A stretch of 33,872 nt of DNA, from assembly GCA_036881865.1 (NCBI GenBank), contig JBAJNM010000019.1, forward strand, positions 1-33,872. The letters run 5' to 3'. Within the stretch, counting starts at the first letter, position 1, and the number at the start of each line of letters is the position of its first letter. Source of the DNA: Parvularculales bacterium. GTDB lineage: Bacteria > Pseudomonadota > Alphaproteobacteria > JAPOUT01 > JBAJNM01. This document shows, piece by piece, positions 1-27,653 of the stretch. Both the position numbers and the translations under genes were made by a program. The notes under the pieces were generated by a model. That model was not told the origin of the DNA, ran no database searches, and saw only the letters and a program-made list of their open reading frames with translations.

Positions 1-267
1 GCGCTTGGCCGTCGTCTTGCGCTTAGCCGTCGTTTTACGTCTGGCTGTTTTGCGCTTGGCCGTCGTCTTGCGCTTAGCCGTCGTTTTACGTCTGGCTGTT
101 TTGCGCTTGGCCGTCGTCTTGCGCTTAGCCGTCGTTTTACGTCTGGCTGTCTTGCGTTTGGCCGTTGTTTTACGCTTAGCCGTTGTTTTACGCTTAGCCG
201 TTGTTTTACGCTTAGCCGTTGTTTTACGCCTAGCCGTTGTTTTACGCCTAGCCGTTGTTTTACGTTT
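1..267. repeat. Nested tandem repeat (51-base units over 18-base units) inside the basic protein gene
   Basis: Three nearly identical 51-base units lie at 1-51, 52-102 and 103-153, with one mismatch seen at the end of the third. Each encodes 17 residues (KTARR plus two KTTAKR). From about 154 to 267 the array changes to 18-base units, each encoding one KTTAKR or KTTARR. Both unit lengths are multiples of three, so copy-number changes keep the reading frame. The near-identity of the 51-base units at the DNA level suggests recent amplification by slippage or recombination. Confidence 0.9.
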
Positions 268-282
268 CGATCTTGTAGCCAT
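1..282 (-). CDS. Histone H1-like lysine/arginine-rich repeat protein (5' part, runs off the window)
   Basis: The reading frame starts at ATG 282-280, directly after a strong ribosome binding site (GAGGAGGAA), and stays open for 94 codons to the left edge, so the C-terminus is not visible. After a short leader (MATRSKR) the protein consists only of KTTAKR, KTTARR and KTARR units. There are no acidic or aromatic residues, so the visible part is extremely basic and of very low complexity. Such composition is known from bacterial H1-like and AlgP-like DNA-binding proteins, so a nucleoid or nucleic-acid-binding role is inferred, not shown. The plus-strand frame over the same bases is also open (AVVLRL repeats), but it has no ribosome binding site and is a by-product of the repeat. 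The full length is unknown, and a longer protein with a folded domain beyond the edge cannot be excluded. Confidence 0.8.
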   Translation of the reverse strand, partial: MATRSKRKTTARRKTTARRKTTAKRKTTAKRKTTAKRKTTAKRKTARRKTTAKRKTTAKRKTARRKTTAKRKTTAKRKTARRKTTAKRKTTAKR

Positions 283-362
283 TTCCTCCTCGTCAAAGTA
301 GTTATTACATCATGTTATTCACAAAGCAGTCGTTGCTTCATGCGTTAATCGAAAACTACAAC

Positions 363-379
363 TGATTCGTCATGAATCA
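363..379. other. Interrupted palindrome in the gatB / basic-protein gap
   Basis: TGATTC at 363-368 and GAATCA at 374-379 form a perfect 6-base inverted repeat around a 5-base spacer. It lies 81 bases upstream of the basic-protein start and downstream of the gatB stop, in a 230-base gap. Read on the minus strand it is followed by GTTGTAGTTTTC, so it could be a weak gatB terminator or an operator for the basic-protein gene. A second, weaker inverted repeat (ATGCA/TGCAT, 466-481) lies closer to gatB. I see no convincing -35/-10 pair in this gap. Confidence 0.3.
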
Positions 380-512
380 ATTAACACACAAATCAACCAC
401 ACATCTAATAGTATAAGCAAGAACATAGACAACGTAAGTGACGCAACACCATCAACGCTTTGTTAATGCATTGCAGTGCATGACAACAACAATGAACACC
501 GAATACGTTAAT

Positions 513-2003
513 TTATGCGTCTTCAGAAGGCTCAGAGATATTTAGTTTTTGACGAAGTAATCCGTTTACGGATTGAGGATTTGCCTTGCCTTTACTGGAT
601 TTCATAACCTGCCCTACAAACCAGCCCAACATTTGCGGCTTGTTTTGAACCTGCGCTACTTTATCCGGATTAGAGGCTATAACCTCATCAACAATCGCTT
701 CAATAACGCTCATGTCCGTTACTTGACGTAATCCATACTCATCTACAATTTTTTGTGCGCTGTTGCCAGATTCTAACATTTTTTCAAAAATGTCCTTAGC
801 GATTCGCCCCGAGATAGTTTCATCAGCAATCAAATCAAGCAACTCACCAAGACCATCTGCCGTAACAGGTGTTGCTTCTATGGTGAGGTTTAGATGGTTA
901 AGAGCTGCTGATAATTCCCCCGTTACCCAATTGGCTACTAACTTCGCATCACGTCCCTGCGCTACAGTTTCATAATAATCAGCCAGCGCCCGGCCGGTGA
1001 TCAACACACCCGCATCATAAGCAGACAAACCATAGTCCGCTATCAACCGCTCTTTCTTGTCGTCCGGTAACTCCGGCAGATTACTTGCAATGTCATCTAC
1101 CCACGCCTGATCTAACCGTAACGGCAATAAATCCGGATCAGGAAAATACCTATAATCATGCGCCTCTTCTTTAGTACGCATAGGCCGGGTCTCCCCAAGA
1201 CGGGCATCAAACAGGCGGGTTTCCTGCACTATTTCACCCCCCTCCTCCAGTACAGAAATCTGGCGACGAGATTCATACTCTATCGCCTGACCAATAAACC
1301 GTATGGAGTTTATATTCTTAATCTCACAGCGTGTTCCCAAGGCCTCCCCCGGACGACGCACCGAGACATTAACATCGGCCCTCAAAGACCCCTGCTCCAT
1401 GTTGCCGTCACAACTGCCAAGATAACGTAAAACCGTGCGCAGTTTGCGCATGTACGTCTGAGCCTGAGTTGCAGAACGCATATCGGGACGAGAGACAATC
1501 TCCATTAAGGCAACACCGGCTCGATTCAAATCAACAAAGCTTAAATCGGGATCCTGATCATGGAGGCTTTTTCCTGCATCCTGCTCTAAATGCAGCCGCT
1601 CAATGCCCACCACGATGCTTTGACCATCGGGCATATCAAGAGATATCTGCCCCTCCCCTACAATCGGGTTTTTATATTGAGAAATCTGATAGCCCTGAGG
1701 CTGATCAGGATAAAAATAATTCTTGCGGTCAAAGACAGAATAAAGATTGATTTGAGCCCGCAAACCAAGACCTGTACGTATCGCTTGCTCAACACAATAC
1801 TGATTAATGACCGGCAACATACCGGGCATAGCGGCATCCACAAGGCTTACCTGAGTGTTCGGCTCTGCGCCAAAATCCGTACACGCACCCGAAAACAGTT
1901 TCGCGGAAGACGTTATCTGCGCGTGAGTTTCAAGACCGATGACAATCTCCCAGTCTCCGATAGCTCCGGCAATCAAATCACCTGTGTTATCCGCCACGCT
2001 CAT
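513..2003 (-). CDS. gatB: Aspartyl/glutamyl-tRNA amidotransferase subunit B
   Basis: GatB is the kinase and tRNA-binding subunit of GatCAB. That complex phosphorylates misacylated Glu-tRNA(Gln) or Asp-tRNA(Asn) and amidates it with ammonia supplied by GatA. The protein has the family N-terminus ([12 protein letters not shown], then SSAKLFSG), the Asp/Asn-rich core with [10 protein letters not shown], and the C-terminal tail domain ending in NGLLRQKL. I place the start at ATG 2003-2001, giving 496 residues, because it overlaps the gatA stop in an ATGA arrangement typical of translational coupling. A longer frame begins at 2018. The order gatC-gatA-gatB on the minus strand indicates one operon. 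Its presence implies that GlnRS, AsnRS or both are absent, which cannot be checked here. Confidence 0.96.
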
Positions 2004-3484
2004 GAGGCCCGCCACCACGGAGCAGGGGCTGCCTTAAAGCCCGCCGCCGTTTCCAGAGCACCAGCCAAACGTAGCAAAGTCTCTTCGTCAAAAGCCCTTC
2101 CTACCAATTGAAGAGATAGAGGCAACCCTGTTGCATCCTGTCCTACCGGCACAGTAATACCCGGCAAGCCTGCCATATTCGCGGGCACCGTAAAAATGTC
2201 ATTGAAATACATAGACAACGGATCTGCCTTATCCCCGCGAGAAAAGGCTGCCGAAGGGGTGGCTGGTGTCAAAATAGCATCCACTTTTTCATAAGCAGCG
2301 GCAAAATCCTGTGCTATCAGCGTACGTACCTTCTGGGCTTTTAGATAATACGCATCATAATACCCCTGAGAGAGCACGTACGTTCCAATCAGGATGCGCC
2401 GTTTGACCTCATCACCAAAGCCTGCAGCCCTTGTGTTCTCGTAAAGTGTGTCGATCTCATCGGCAGGAACCCGCAGCCCATAACGTACTCCGTCATAGCG
2501 TGCCAAATTAGAAGAAGCCTCTGCCGGTGCTACAATATAATAAGCCGGAAGAGCATACGTGATATGGGGCAGATCAACTTCTACAATTTCAGCGCCTGCC
2601 TCCTGTAACCATTGTTCCCCTTGCGACCACAATGCTTCCATTTCATCGGGCAAGCCCTCTATTCGACACTGCTTCGGGAGCCCTATCCGCAATCCTTTGA
2701 CATCACCGGTGAGGGCCTTCTCATAATGAGATATGGGATGATCGGCACAAGTAGAATCTTTCTCATCCGGTCCCGCCATGGCTTCGAGCATAATTGCCGC
2801 ATCCCGAACATCACGGGTCAACGGCCCAGCCTGATCAAGAGATGAAGCAAATGCCACAATGCCCCAGCGTGAGCATCGACCATAGCTGGGCTTCAACCCA
2901 ACAATCCCCGTAAGAGCGGCAGGCTGCCTAATAGACCCTCCCGTATCTGTTCCCACGGCTGCTACCGCCAAGCGCGCCGCCACCGCCGCCGAAGCTCCTC
3001 CTGATGAACCACCGGGCGACAAGGGCGTCTCATCCCCCTTCCGCCGCCAAGGATTGGTCACCGGTCCAAAATAGCTGCTCTCATTAGAAGAGCCCATAGC
3101 AAACTCATCATTATTGAGCTTGCCCAGTAAAACCGCACCGCTTTGCCACAAGCGCCCAGTAACGGTTGACTCATATGTAGGTGTGAAATTCTCCAGAATG
3201 TGGCTACAAGCCGTTGTCTTTACGCCCTTGGTGCAGAACATATCTTTGATACCCAGAGGCATGCCTTCCAGCACGCCACCCTCACCTGCGCCGAGACGCT
3301 CATCGGACTCCCGAGCCATATCAAGCGCCCGCTCCGGTGTAACGGTGATATAGGCGTTCAAACTATCTGCCTCTTCAATAGATTGAAGATAGGCTTGTGC
3401 CAGTTCAACAGCGCTGAACTCCCGCTTCAGGAGACCTGACCGTGCATCCGCCAGACTAAGGGCTGTCAAATCAGACGCAGACAT
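2000..3484 (-). CDS. gatA: Aspartyl/glutamyl-tRNA amidotransferase subunit A
   Basis: GatA is the amidase-signature glutaminase of GatCAB and releases ammonia from glutamine for transamidation. The predicted Ser-cisSer-Lys triad is visible: Lys80 in GIKDMF, Ser160 in SPGGSSGG and Ser184 in [11 protein letters not shown]. The 24-residue gap between the two serines fits the family. The protein is 494 residues, the normal length. ATG 3484-3482 is preferred; a TTG codon just before it is an alternative. It lies 28 bases downstream of gatC and overlaps gatB by four bases. Confidence 0.97.
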
Positions 3485-3512
3485 CAAAAATTCTCATCAC
3501 ACATGTTGCTTT

Positions 3513-3809
3513 TTATTCAACAATTTTGGGTGTGGTGAAAAAACCATCTTCTACCGCCGGTGCATTTGCCAAAACCTGCCGCCTATCACCACCATCGGTT
3601 ACTTTGTCCTTCCGCATCGGCAAATCCATAGTGAATACCGCCGTCATAGGCTGCACACCCTCTGTGTCTACCTCTTCCAGCTGACGCACCCACTCCAGAA
3701 TAGTGACTATATCCAGCGCCATGGCATCCAGAGCATCGTCCGGCAAGGTAAGACGTGCAAGATGGGCAATGTGGCGGACCATTTCTCGATCTTCAATCAC
3801 CATAGGCAT
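3513..3809 (-). CDS. gatC: Aspartyl/glutamyl-tRNA amidotransferase subunit C
   Basis: GatC is the small subunit that wraps around GatA and stabilises its contact with GatB. The 98-residue protein carries the family hallmarks: VRHIAHLARL near the N-terminus, then ILEWVRQLEEVDTEGVQPM, and a C-terminal FFTTPKIVE. Two in-frame ATGs exist, at 3809 and 3803. An AGGAG sequence lies two bases before the first and about eight before the second, so the second, giving a 96-residue protein, may be the real start. It is the first gene of the gatCAB operon and is divergent from ruvX. Confidence 0.95.
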   Translation of the reverse strand: MPMVIEDREMVRHIAHLARLTLPDDALDAMALDIVTILEWVRQLEEVDTEGVQPMTAVFTMDLPMRKDKVTDGGDRRQVLANAPAVEDGFFTTPKIVE

Positions 3810-8920: not shown

Positions 8921-11551
8921 ATGGACGTTGTCATCGTAGAATCACCTGCCAAGGCCAAAACTATCAATAAATATTTGGGCAACAATTACACCGTTGTAGC
9001 CTCCTACGGGCACGTGCGGGATTTACCTTCTAAAAATAACTCCGTCATGCCAGATGACAATTTCGCTATGATCTGGGAGACAGATGACCGATCAGCCAAA
9101 CGGCTCAACGATATCGCCGCCAAAGTCAAACAAGCAGACCGCCTCATCCTTGCGACCGACCCGGATCGCGAAGGAGAAGCTATCTCCTGGCACATGCTAG
9201 AAGTGCTGACCGAAAAGCGCGCCCTTAAAGAACAGCCCGTCGAAAGAGTGGTCTTCAATGCCATCACCAAGTCTGCCGTGTTGGAGGCTATGGCGCATCC
9301 CCGCACTTTGGACCACCAACTAATTGATGCCTATCTCGCACGGCGCGCTCTTGATTATCTCGTGGGCTTTACCTTATCACCTGTCTTGTGGCGAAAATTG
9401 CCAGGATCACGATCCGCCGGACGAGTGCAATCCGTAGCCTTGCGTCTGGTATGTGAACGAGAACTCGCCATTGAAACCTTCAAACCACAAGAATATTGGT
9501 CTCTTGAAGCGTTACTCAAAACAGCCCAAGGCGCTGACATAACAGCAAGGCTGGTACGCTTGAATGGCAAAAAGATAGACCGCCTAAGTATAGAGAATAA
9601 AGAAGCCGCCACACGAGCACGGGATGCTGTACGGGCGGCAACCTTACGGGTGTACTCTGTTACCAGTAAGCCGGGTCGGCGTCATCCGTCGCCGCCCTTT
9701 ACCACCTCCACCCTACAGCAAGAAGCCGCTCGAAAACTAGGCTACACAACCAAACGCACCATGCAGATTGCTCAAAAACTCTATGAGGGTCAAGACATCA
9801 ACGGTGAGACTACCGGACTCATCACCTATATGCGGACCGATGGCGTTCAAATTGCCACCGAAGCGATTAGCGATGTGAGAGCTAACATTACCCGCATGTT
9901 CGGTGATAGTTATACGCCCTCTGCACCACGCCAATATAAAAGCAAAGCCAAGAATGCCCAGGAAGCTCACGAAGCCATCCGCCCCACGGACAGCTCTCGG
10001 CTACCCACCGATATGGAAAACTATCTTAGCAATGAAGAGTTTCGCTTATACGATCTCATCTGGAAACGCACCATGGCCAGCCAGATGGAGAGTGCACGTC
10101 TTGAGCGCACTACAGTTGAGATTGATGATGAAGATAAGGCTGTAGAATTGCGGATTACAGGATCTGTTGTAGCCTTTGATGGCTTTTTGCGTCTCTATCA
10201 AGAGGGCCAAGACGATGGTGACGATGATTCAGAGCAAGAAAATCGTCTACCCAAACTAACAGAAGGTGAGAGTCTCACTTTGGACAAGGCTCTGATTGCC
10301 CAACATTTCACCGAGCCGCCCCCTCGCTTCACAGAAGCTACATTGGTTAAACGTCTTGAAGAATTGGGTATTGGACGACCTTCTACGTATGCGTCTACTT
10401 TATCTGTGTTACGGGATCGCAATTATGTGCGCATGGACAAGACACGTTTTATTCCGGAAGACAGGGGACGTCTGGTCACGGCCTTTCTGGAAAGTTTCTT
10501 TGAACGCTACGTAGAATATGACTTCACGGCAGCCTTAGAAGAGAAGCTCGATAAAATCAGCGCCGGTGAGATGGAATGGAAACAGGTTCTTGAAGATTTT
10601 TGGCGGGAGTTCACACATTCAGTCGAAGATATTGCCGATTTGCGCATTAGCGAGGTGCTAGATCATCTAAACGATGAACTTGGCCCCCATGTGTTTCCCC
10701 CCCAAGAAGAGGCCGAAGACCCCCGTCAGTGCCCGCAATGCAATGAAGGGCGCCTCAGTATCAAGGTCGGTCGTTATGGAGTTTTTGTTGGCTGTTCACG
10801 CTATCCCGATTGTCGTCACACCCGTCCTCTAACAACGCAAAATGATGAACAGAGCAGCATAGGAGGAGACCGCACCATAGGTCGCGATGAAGCCAGTGGG
10901 CTGGACGTCTTCTTAAAGACAGGCCGGTTTGGCCCTTATGTTCAGCTAGGAGAAGTTGAAGATGACAATAAGCCCAAACGCGCCGGTATTCCACGGGGTA
11001 TTGATCTCAATACTCTGGACTTAAAACAAGCTCTTGATTTGTTATCCTTACCCCGCGAGTTGGGGATGCATCCCGAAACAGGCAAAATCATTAAAGCCGG
11101 ACTGGGGCGCTATGGCCCCTTTGTGTTGCACAATGGCGTTTACGCCAGTCTGCCCTCTGTTGAAGAAGTATTCACTGTTGGTCTTAACCGAGCGGTTACT
11201 CTGCTAGCAGAAAAGAAACCCCGTTCGTGGGGGTCTAAAACGTTGCGCGAATTGGGAGAACATCCTGATGATGGCGCGCCTGTCAATGTTATGGAAGGCC
11301 GCTATGGACCCTATGTCAAACATGGCAAAATTAATGCCACCTTACCCCATGATACACCCCCTAAAGATATAACCCTTGAACAAGCACTGTCCCTTATTGC
11401 TGCAAAGGCTGTTAAAGGTATTACCGGCAAGCGCACTAAGAAGGCAGCAACCAAGAAGAAAACTACCGCTAAGAAAAAAACCACCGTAAAGAAGAAAACC
11501 ACCACCAATAAAGTAAAAACGACTGTAAAAAGAGATGCCGCCGCCGAATGA
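8921..11551 (+). CDS. topA: DNA topoisomerase I with a lysine-rich tail
   Basis: TopA relaxes negative supercoils by a type IA mechanism. The TOPRIM acidic residues are visible (Glu7 in VESPAKAKT; Asp80, Asp82 and Glu84 in TDPDREGE), and the active-site Tyr303 sits in TYMRTDG. One four-cysteine zinc finger (Cys604, Cys607, Cys625, Cys631) is followed by C-terminal repeat elements of the form GRYGPFV or GRYGPYV. The last 40 or so residues are a lysine-rich tail built on KKKTTAKKKTTV, resembling the basic repeat protein at 1-282. At 876 residues it is within the alphaproteobacterial range. The end overlaps rnr by 17 bases. Confidence 0.97.
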   Translation: MDVVIVESPAKAKTINKYLGNNYTVVASYGHVRDLPSKNNSVMPDDNFAMIWETDDRSAKRLNDIAAKVKQADRLILATDPDREGEAISWHMLEVLTEKRALKEQPVERVVFNAITKSAVLEAMAHPRTLDHQLIDAYLARRALDYLVGFTLSPVLWRKLPGSRSAGRVQSVALRLVCERELAIETFKPQEYWSLEALLKTAQGADITARLVRLNGKKIDRLSIENKEAATRARDAVRAATLRVYSVTSKPGRRHPSPPFTTSTLQQEAARKLGYTTKRTMQIAQKLYEGQDINGETTGLITYMRTDGVQIATEAISDVRANITRMFGDSYTPSAPRQYKSKAKNAQEAHEAIRPTDSSRLPTDMENYLSNEEFRLYDLIWKRTMASQMESARLERTTVEIDDEDKAVELRITGSVVAFDGFLRLYQEGQDDGDDDSEQENRLPKLTEGESLTLDKALIAQHFTEPPPRFTEATLVKRLEELGIGRPSTYASTLSVLRDRNYVRMDKTRFIPEDRGRLVTAFLESFFERYVEYDFTAALEEKLDKISAGEMEWKQVLEDFWREFTHSVEDIADLRISEVLDHLNDELGPHVFPPQEEAEDPRQCPQCNEGRLSIKVGRYGVFVGCSRYPDCRHTRPLTTQNDEQSSIGGDRTIGRDEASGLDVFLKTGRFGPYVQLGEVEDDNKPKRAGIPRGIDLNTLDLKQALDLLSLPRELGMHPETGKIIKAGLGRYGPFVLHNGVYASLPSVEEVFTVGLNRAVTLLAEKKPRSWGSKTLRELGEHPDDGAPVNVMEGRYGPYVKHGKINATLPHDTPPKDITLEQALSLIAAKAVKGITGKRTKKAATKKKTTAKKKTTVKKKTTTNKVKTTVKRDAAAE

Positions 11552-26062: not shown

Positions 26063-26515
26063 TCATAACAAGCCTAATGTCGCCAACTCGGCACGCATGG
26101 CTTCGGGCATATCATCCTCGCCGTCCTCTCCCTCCGCTATGTCATCGGGAGCATCCTGAGGGTTAAGATAACGCCATCCCTGAAAAGGGCGGCGCGGTTG
26201 TGGCCTCGTCAACACCACAGCAGGGTCCAGCACTAAATAGCAATACCGCTTCTGCGTCCCCTCTTCAACGGTGCGAATATCCACTAATGTCTGGCGTGCC
26301 TGTATCAAACCCTTAATAACCCAATAAAGAGAGCCACCCGCCAGCAATTCCTCCTTTCGAGACGGAGTCATACGGGTGCCGTGATATGGCTCCCGCGGTT
26401 TGCCTAGCTCTGGCTTTTCTCCCGCACGGCGTTGTTGCACACGGCGCAACTGATCAACACTATCAATGCCAACGCACAGTTTCACCAGATGCAAACGGGG
26501 AGTTTCGCCACTCAT
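26063..26515 (-). CDS. DUF1489 family protein
   Basis: This 150-residue protein matches DUF1489, an uncharacterised alphaproteobacterial family: LVKLCVGIDSVDQL, TRMTPSRKEELLAGGSLYWVIKG, and RPFQGWRYLNPQDAP. The start ATG 26515 gives the usual family start (MSGETPRLHL). The frame extends upstream to 26731, but those residues come from the antisense of the next gene's Gln/Glu tract and are not family-like. The end is acidic (EGEDGEDD). No function is known to me. Confidence 0.88.
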   Translation of the reverse strand: MSGETPRLHLVKLCVGIDSVDQLRRVQQRRAGEKPELGKPREPYHGTRMTPSRKEELLAGGSLYWVIKGLIQARQTLVDIRTVEEGTQKRYCYLVLDPAVVLTRPQPRRPFQGWRYLNPQDAPDDIAEGEDGEDDMPEAMRAELATLGLL

Positions 26516-26627
26516 CACAATATCCGCATAGCAACCAGTGAGTCCAATCCTGCAACGTCCAAAACAAGACCCTCTATAATCCAAAATAGTCTTCGTCTCT
26601 TTGCATAAACGCAAACCCCTAAAAGAA

Positions 26628-27653
26628 TTATACTGCGTCCTCTTCTTCTTGTTCTTCTTGTTCTTCTTGTTCTTCTTGCTCCAATTGCTCAGGGTCAATA
26701 TCCCGCACCCGATCCCTAAACGCTCTATCAAAGGCTTCTATCCTATCCTTAAACCAAGTATTCAGAGAGGGCCAATCATTCTCATCTGTTGGATTCGCAT
26801 CCTTAGACTGGAGAATCTTCGAGGAGTTTCTTGCAGGCAATTCTTTCCATTCCAGAGCCGCTCCAATTTCTTGCTCAATGGCGCTCTTGTCCTTTTTTAG
26901 GATATGAAAATAGGTCTTTGCATGCACGGGATCTGTGATAAATAGCTCTACACGAATGCGTTTATCACGCGTACCCAGTACAGCATCGATAGTGAAGTGA
27001 CTACGGCTTAAGGAAAAACTTTTCCAATGCCGCGGTTTTGGATTTGTTAGACGAAGGTGTGATCCGCTGGACTTTAGATACTCCAGAAATTGTTGCCAGT
27101 AGCGAAATTGTAGTTTTTTGGTTTCACTAATGGGTTCATCGCTAATGTGTTGAGCAGCGTGTAAAACAGACTGACTCCAGTCATTTGGCTTTGAGACAAT
27201 ATTAAATTTTGGAGCGGCTATGGAACCATTGATGCTCCACAACTCTACCTCTAAGGCAAAAAACCGAAACCGCTCGTCTGTAATTTTATTCAGCCAATCC
27301 AAGGTTGCTTGATGTTCTTCCGTAAATTTGGATGCAATCCAGACAATAGTGACGGCTTGTAATCCCGCAGCGTAGGTCAATATCTGACCTAAATGGCGGT
27401 GATCGGAACGCTCAATCTGATTTTCAATAAGCACCCAAGAATCATCATCCCTATCCCCGTTCTTACATAGAATGTCTGCACGGAATGGCCCTACATTCTT
27501 TTCCACCGCTTCAAGCTCCAGATCTATGCCGAGAGTCTCGGCCAACAATTCCAGATTGGATTCTTCAGCGAGCCAAGGAGTGAAATGCTTGTCTTCCGTT
27601 TCCCATATATCACGCAGTTCCACGCGTTCTAATTTACCAAGAGGTTTAGTCAT
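26628..27653 (-). CDS. DUF4268 / PD-(D/E)xK nuclease-like protein
   Basis: The 341-residue protein has an N-terminal nuclease-like segment: Asp60 (FRADILC), then VLIENQIERSDHRHLGQILTYAAG with Glu77-x-Gln79 in place of the usual ExK. This D...ExQ pattern is that of DUF4268-type restriction-endonuclease-like proteins found singly in many genomes. The C-terminal half contains the DUF4268-like region (LQFRYWQQFLEYLKSSG) and an acidic tail of Glu-Glu-Gln repeats. No partner methyltransferase is in the window. No clear ribosome binding site precedes the ATG at 27653. Its place beside a tRNA gene and its scattered family distribution suggest horizontal transfer, which is inferred. Confidence 0.8.
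   Translation of the reverse strand: MTKPLGKLERVELRDIWETEDKHFTPWLAEESNLELLAETLGIDLELEAVEKNVGPFRADILCKNGDRDDDSWVLIENQIERSDHRHLGQILTYAAGLQAVTIVWIASKFTEEHQATLDWLNKITDERFRFFALEVELWSINGSIAAPKFNIVSKPNDWSQSVLHAAQHISDEPISETKKLQFRYWQQFLEYLKSSGSHLRLTNPKPRHWKSFSLSRSHFTIDAVLGTRDKRIRVELFITDPVHAKTYFHILKKDKSAIEQEIGAALEWKELPARNSSKILQSKDANPTDENDWPSLNTWFKDRIEAFDRAFRDRVRDIDPEQLEQEEQEEQEEQEEEDAV
26643..26678. repeat. 9-base microsatellite in the nuclease-like gene
   Basis: Four perfect copies of TTCTTCTTG lie end to end. On the coding minus strand they encode Gln-Glu-Glu repeats in the acidic C-terminal tail. The unit is three codons, so slippage would change tail length without shifting the frame. Confidence 0.9.

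Follow-up and report, generated by a model that had tools for sequence, protein, structure and literature searches.

The open reading frame at the start of the window, the whole stretch of 33,872 nucleotides from a Parvularculales bacterium that was analysed here, would encode a free-standing, histone-H1-like polycation of the Hc2/BpH1/AlgP-tail type that binds and condenses nucleic acid. This reading is given a probability of about 0.65. The features of the locus are as follows.

Positions 1 to 282, minus strand: Lys/Arg/Thr/Ala repeat protein, histone-H1-like in composition (open reading frame, translation, unit table).
Positions 1 to 153, minus strand: three 51-base units, each 18+18+15 bases (Tandem Repeats Finder, direct comparison).
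Positions 154 to 261, minus strand: six 18-base units, two KTTARR and four KTTAKR (unit table, window coordinates).
Positions 285 to 291, minus strand: putative ribosome-binding site, the purine-rich GAGGAGG just before the ATG (read from the sequence).
Positions 283 to 512, minus strand: gap of 230 bases separating the repeat gene from gatB (222 bases in the relatives G002 and G003).
Positions 513 to 2018, minus strand: gatB, the conserved upstream neighbour (relatives by search).
Positions 2000 to 3487, minus strand: presumably gatA, arranged as in L018 and L019.
Positions 3513 to 3809, minus strand: presumably gatC (open reading frame listing).

The repeat frame runs on the minus strand from 282 to 1. 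It starts with ATG and is stop-free up to the contig end, with 94 codons visible; the 3' end of the gene and the C-terminus of the protein lie beyond the contig. The visible residues are 26 K, 22 R, 28 T, 16 A, 1 M and 1 S, with zero acidic and zero aromatic residues and a net charge of +0.51 per residue, and K or R stands at about one in two positions, evenly spaced. The peptide MATRSKR is followed by 15 units starting with KT, of which 12 have six residues (KTTAKR or KTTARR) and three have five (KTARR). An earlier reading made from the sequence only had described the visible codons as consisting almost entirely of KTTAKR-type units, with three near-identical 51-base units beside 18-base units, and the unit table bears out both descriptions. 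The six 18-base units are start-proximal (154-261) and the 51-base units distal (1-153); positions 1-51 equal 52-102 exactly, and 103-153 has one base different. Tandem Repeats Finder reported period 18 (15.1 copies) and period 51 (4.8 copies, 91% matches). A nested-repeat anatomy is already known in kind from Hc2 and Hc2-like proteins. The motif GAGGAGG is likely to be the ribosome-binding site of the gene; in G002 and G003, the corresponding AGAGG stands somewhat farther upstream of the start than in the window. A weakly informative scan of window positions 1 to 700 matched no sigma-70-like promoter and no terminator.

The longest exact repeat in the array is 99 bases. In 1000 synonymous-codon permutations that preserve the protein the longest repeat reached at most 44 bases (mean 20.3), and in 1000 codon shuffles at most 23. 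As the observed repeat exceeds all synonymous permutations, the DNA itself has been amplified, beyond what a repetitive protein gives as a by-product. Together with the 18- and 51-base units, this agrees with the earlier proposal of amplification at two scales with the frame kept. Among the 12 six-codon units, read in the minus frame, 0, 1 and 5 columns are variable at codon positions 1, 2 and 3, respectively, and the pairwise codon differences comprise 139 synonymous and 20 non-synonymous ones. Since the variation is mostly at third positions, the minus frame is coding and constrained. Several further frames of the array are also open, the repeat unit being without stops.

Four genomes of the order were compared, the window's own (G000) and G001, G002 and G003, with GatB identities to the window of 61-65%. 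In G002 and G003 a single strand carries gatB, 222 bp, the repeat gene and a gene which, from its sequence, we take to encode a glutathione S-transferase (GST). The relatives in G002 (127 aa) and G003 (105 aa) have the same make-up as the window protein and begin with MAT like it; both are complete and low-complexity throughout. In G001 gatB and GST are present with no basic repeat gene between them, and the gene is therefore dispensable there.

Base 1 of the window is the contig end. Bases 1-99 are identical to 52-150, where the match stops. Because the contig starts on a repeated 99-mer, the copy number in the window is a lower bound; a break at this point would be expected from a short-read assembler halted at an unresolved loop. 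A search of the same genome with the array and with the G003 GST gene found no contig end that continues the array, and the array search found it on none of the other contigs. Contigs C86 and C2 of this genome carry GST relatives, with no array in the stretches read there. The sequence-only reading had named an assembly artefact as a possible objection; same-place relatives in the separately assembled G002 and G003 speak against this.

Named genomes of other Alphaproteobacteria were surveyed in the best 80 of 590 gatB loci, 77 of them with at least 1 kb downstream. Open reading frames were counted from Met with a length of at least 25, K at least 20%, K+R at least 32% and KRATVPS at least 78%; these looser thresholds, applied with match coordinates to all 80 loci, were set after some matches were already known. 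A Lys-rich frame lies within 1.5 kb downstream of gatB in 7/77 loci, always on the gatB strand and beginning 485-867 bases past the GatB match. The positive loci belong to a Xanthobacteraceae MAG, Rhodopseudomonas, Nitrobacter, two Bradyrhizobium, a Proteobacteria MAG and a Hyphomicrobiales MAG. Over the same 80 loci, seven frames pass the rule in 115.5 kb downstream versus one in the remaining 591.7 kb. A Poisson estimate for this excess is 2e-9, or 2e-7 at doubled background, and the true enrichment is weaker than these figures, since related taxa were counted and the thresholds were relaxed once first results were in. An earlier scan with a stricter composition rule, from which 41 of the 80 loci had dropped because the gatB motif failed, gave five downstream and none elsewhere. 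Frames of only 27-30 codons follow gatB at L032:6334-6417, L047:6043-6132 and L048:6050-6142, in the Xanthobacteraceae MAG and the two Bradyrhizobium, and frames of this size may be skipped by annotation.

The GatB search matched 236 of 241 genomes. A second set of 100 regions downstream of gatB was hand-picked among the matches listed (to about E 1e-196) and represents the closer genomes, the distant ones being unrepresented; 96 regions (59/60 and 37/40) have at least 1 kb. Ten regions are positive, all on the gatB strand, nine of them among the 96. A Lys-rich frame begins less than 900 bases from gatB in 8/96 (G232, G115, G012, G122, G007, G141, G194 and G138); the one in G220 begins at 1,121 bases and was not counted as adjacent. 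The tenth positive, G217, has a region of only 512 bases, which run from gatB to the contig end (L181, contig C531) with the array frame open to that end. As the window and G217 contigs both end inside an array, short-read assemblies may often miss arrays of this kind. Another alphaproteobacterium, G004, has an HC2-type protein that is cut by the end of its contig (L009:1318-1935; this part scores 105.7 bits against Pfam HC2), and a similar array is cut by the start of another contig (L006:2-418). L009 and L006, on contigs C116 and C10, may hold parts of one gene split by assembly at repeats. This gene lies away from gatB, which in G004 is on C119.

The Lys-rich frames of the other Alphaproteobacteria share with the window gene the strand and the site shortly downstream of gatB, and in six of the ten positive regions of the second set (G232, G115, G012, G122, G141 and G138; by motif search only) a GST gene follows. 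GST is found in 22/59 regions downstream of gatB, mostly without a basic gene. The frames differ from the window gene in length, spanning 26-196 aa, and in having other unit types. K+R amounts to 40-57%, with no D/E and no aromatics, in 10/10 genes compared (G000, G002, G003, G012, G115, G122, G141, G194, G217 and G232). The sequence-only reading had suggested that the protein length may vary between strains; length does vary, at the level of related species rather than strains. The genes of G012 (143 aa) and G141 (138 aa), which share a genus code, differ by one 15-base, five-codon in-frame gap and by 21 mismatches in 420 aligned bases, distributed 3/5/13 over the codon positions, a third-position excess which indicates that the coding frame is constrained. 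Between the genes of G002 and G003 the gaps are one of 75 bases and some smaller ones. In-frame change of repeat number between relatives, a mark of H1-like proteins, is found in both pairs.

A quick GatB tree of 110 rows covered 46/80 named loci, 20/60 and 40/40 regions of the second set and the four order genomes; its rows were hand-chosen and include all seven named positives and all five positives of the first 60 regions. Of these hand-chosen rows, 19/108 labelled ones are positive, and at least eight state changes are needed. All 19 positives fall into one 59-row group (SH-aLRT 83, weak), none outside it. The order genomes do not form one group, so the tree is not a species tree, and the window's row stands at an open fork. 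The distribution is compatible with an old locus that was lost many times and with repeated gain alike. Common descent of the gatB-linked frames would have place and composition as its basis, not alignable sequence. No description of a gatB-linked H1-like locus was found in the literature, in a search covering few subscription papers, and the locus may be new.

The window protein is H1-like by composition, being Lys-rich and acid-free with evenly spaced charge and short tandem units; formal Pfam or NCBIfam membership is not reached. It scores 8.9 bits (E 2.1) against Pfam HC2 (PF07382), below the gathering score of 40, and has no match in NCBIfam, including NF038052 (cut-off 135 bits) and NF038053 (80 bits), none in PHROGs and no PDB chain at E 1. 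The G002 and G003 proteins have no match in Pfam (at E 1), NCBIfam or PHROGs. The gatB-linked G122 protein passes Pfam HC2 with 84.3 bits versus the cut-off of 40, and reaches 76.2 and 47.6 bits with NF038052 and NF038053, under their cut-offs of 135 and 80. Sub-cut-off matches to Pfam HC2 are given by the G012, G115, G194 and L053 proteins, and no Pfam family was matched by those of G232 and L037. A folded domain with another role, which would have contradicted the sequence-only reading, was found neither in Pfam, NCBIfam, PHROGs and PDB nor in the complete, low-complexity G002 and G003 proteins. A folded N-terminal domain of the AlgP/PhaF type is absent from the window protein, where seven residues precede the first unit. 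Structure prediction from the single low-complexity sequence returned one long helix and no globular fold, which is not evidence of helicity (mean pLDDT 90.3 for the best model and 55.0 for the worst; pTM 0.45). An H1-like profile search of 241 genomes gave a match in six, outside the order none beside gatB. This search is insensitive, since reading the gatB flanks found members that it missed, such as the gatB-linked G012 gene, probably owing to HMMER's composition filter; 6/241 is no measure of rarity. A phage origin of the repeat gene, also considered, is unsupported, with no PHROGs match.

Two further repeats were observed in the window. The gene at 8921-11551, which we take to be that of topoisomerase I, has a Lys-rich tail, KKKTTAKKKTTVKKKTTT, similar in flavour to the repeat protein; a short tandem repeat with an 18-base unit (11453-11520) encodes this tail. 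For actinobacterial TopA, lysine repeats of the C-terminal domain are reported to give processivity (PMC7398561). The minus-strand frame at 26628-27653 has an EQEEQEEQEE tail from four exact 9-base units (26643-26678), a possible slippage site, and is overlapped by a frame at 26063-26731.

The comparison with known systems follows PMC2848022 and PMC9239181. Both Hc2 and the Hc2-like proteins bind DNA, and in-frame repeat elements make them vary; in Chlamydia Hc2 these are 36-aa elements of pentamers and a hexamer, and among Hc2-like proteins, those of Bordetella and Burkholderia included, size varies too (PMC2848022). The window gene resembles Chlamydia Hc2 (hctB; PF07382) in its short Lys/Arg-rich units nested in longer elements, duplicated or deleted in frame, and in its evenly spread positive charge (PMC2848022). 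Its element is of 17 aa (6+6+5) rather than 36, and in Hc2 the terminal 24 and 69 aa stay outside the repeats. The score of the window protein lies under the Pfam HC2 cut-off. With Bordetella BpH1 and the Burkholderia Hc2-like proteins (the latter being NF038053) it shares free-standing, size-variable, Lys-rich repeats in Proteobacteria (PMC2848022). Unlike the Burkholderia proteins, those of the window, G002 and G003 have no NF038053 match, and the BpH1 and Burkholderia proteins of PMC2848022 are betaproteobacterial whereas the window gene is alphaproteobacterial. The AlgP and PhaF tails are likewise disordered Lys-rich repeats, with a repeat number that varies between isolates (PMC9239181); there, however, a KPAA tail follows a separate N-terminal domain, whereas in the window the repeat is the whole protein and its unit is KTTAKR. 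Basic low-complexity sequence can converge, and the resemblance to H1-like proteins is therefore no proof of shared ancestry.

By analogy, the polycation would probably be disordered, with K or R evenly spaced at about every second residue, and would act like the Lys-rich parts of Hc2, BpH1 and the AlgP tail, by charge-based DNA binding without sequence preference. Bound DNA would be condensed or bridged, and RNA would probably be bound too. In-frame gain or loss of units would change the protein length and, through it, the valency. We infer nucleic-acid binding, condensation and length as a tuned property from these systems; the charge pattern would equally suit RNA or polyphosphate.

That the protein has polyphosphate or some other storage granule as its chief partner, tethered to the nucleoid as by AlgP and PhaF, rather than bulk DNA, is unlikely. 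AlgP has a Lys-rich repeat tail similar to the one in PhaF and a separate 124-aa N-terminal domain; it is found with polyP granules, whose even spacing depends on it (PMC9239181). The complete G002 and G003 relatives, however, are without one, and no granule genes were seen adjoining the window locus. The gatCAB product makes Gln-tRNA and Asn-tRNA, and the adjacency would be functional if the target were RNA or the ribosome and the polycation packed RNA or repressed translation, which we regard as rather improbable. Hc2 reportedly binds RNA with higher affinity than Hc1 does and represses translation (PMC2848022), and the gatB-adjacent position recurs in the order, the named loci and the second set; but gaps of 222-230 bases in the order and 485-867 in the named loci do not point to a single operon, a Lys-rich gene is missing from most gatB loci, and the position may only be inherited. 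A selfish or assembly-made tandem array, stop-free by chance and no gene at all, is very improbable and largely refuted, for although the contig breaks inside the array and several other frames of the stop-free unit are open too, the third-position variation among the units in the minus frame, the same-strand, same-place relatives starting with MAT in other assemblies and the third-position excess between G012 and G141 count against it.

Family models miss such proteins, as none is passed by the window protein or by its closest relatives, and the recurrent gatB-adjacent position is a way to find and name their genes. The natural length series from 26 to 196 aa is one in which repeat number could be tested against DNA condensation; according to PMC2848022, there is no study comparing shorter with longer BpH1, and PMC9239181 asks for work in which the number of KPAA repeats is varied. 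More tentatively, the gatB-GST interval of Alphaproteobacteria may hold one ancestral, hitherto undescribed gene for an H1-like nucleoid protein, often lost and built anew out of other kinds of repeat, in which position, charge and frame alone are conserved and valency evolves by in-frame amplification. If true, the defining marks of this protein family would be its place and composition, not its sequence.
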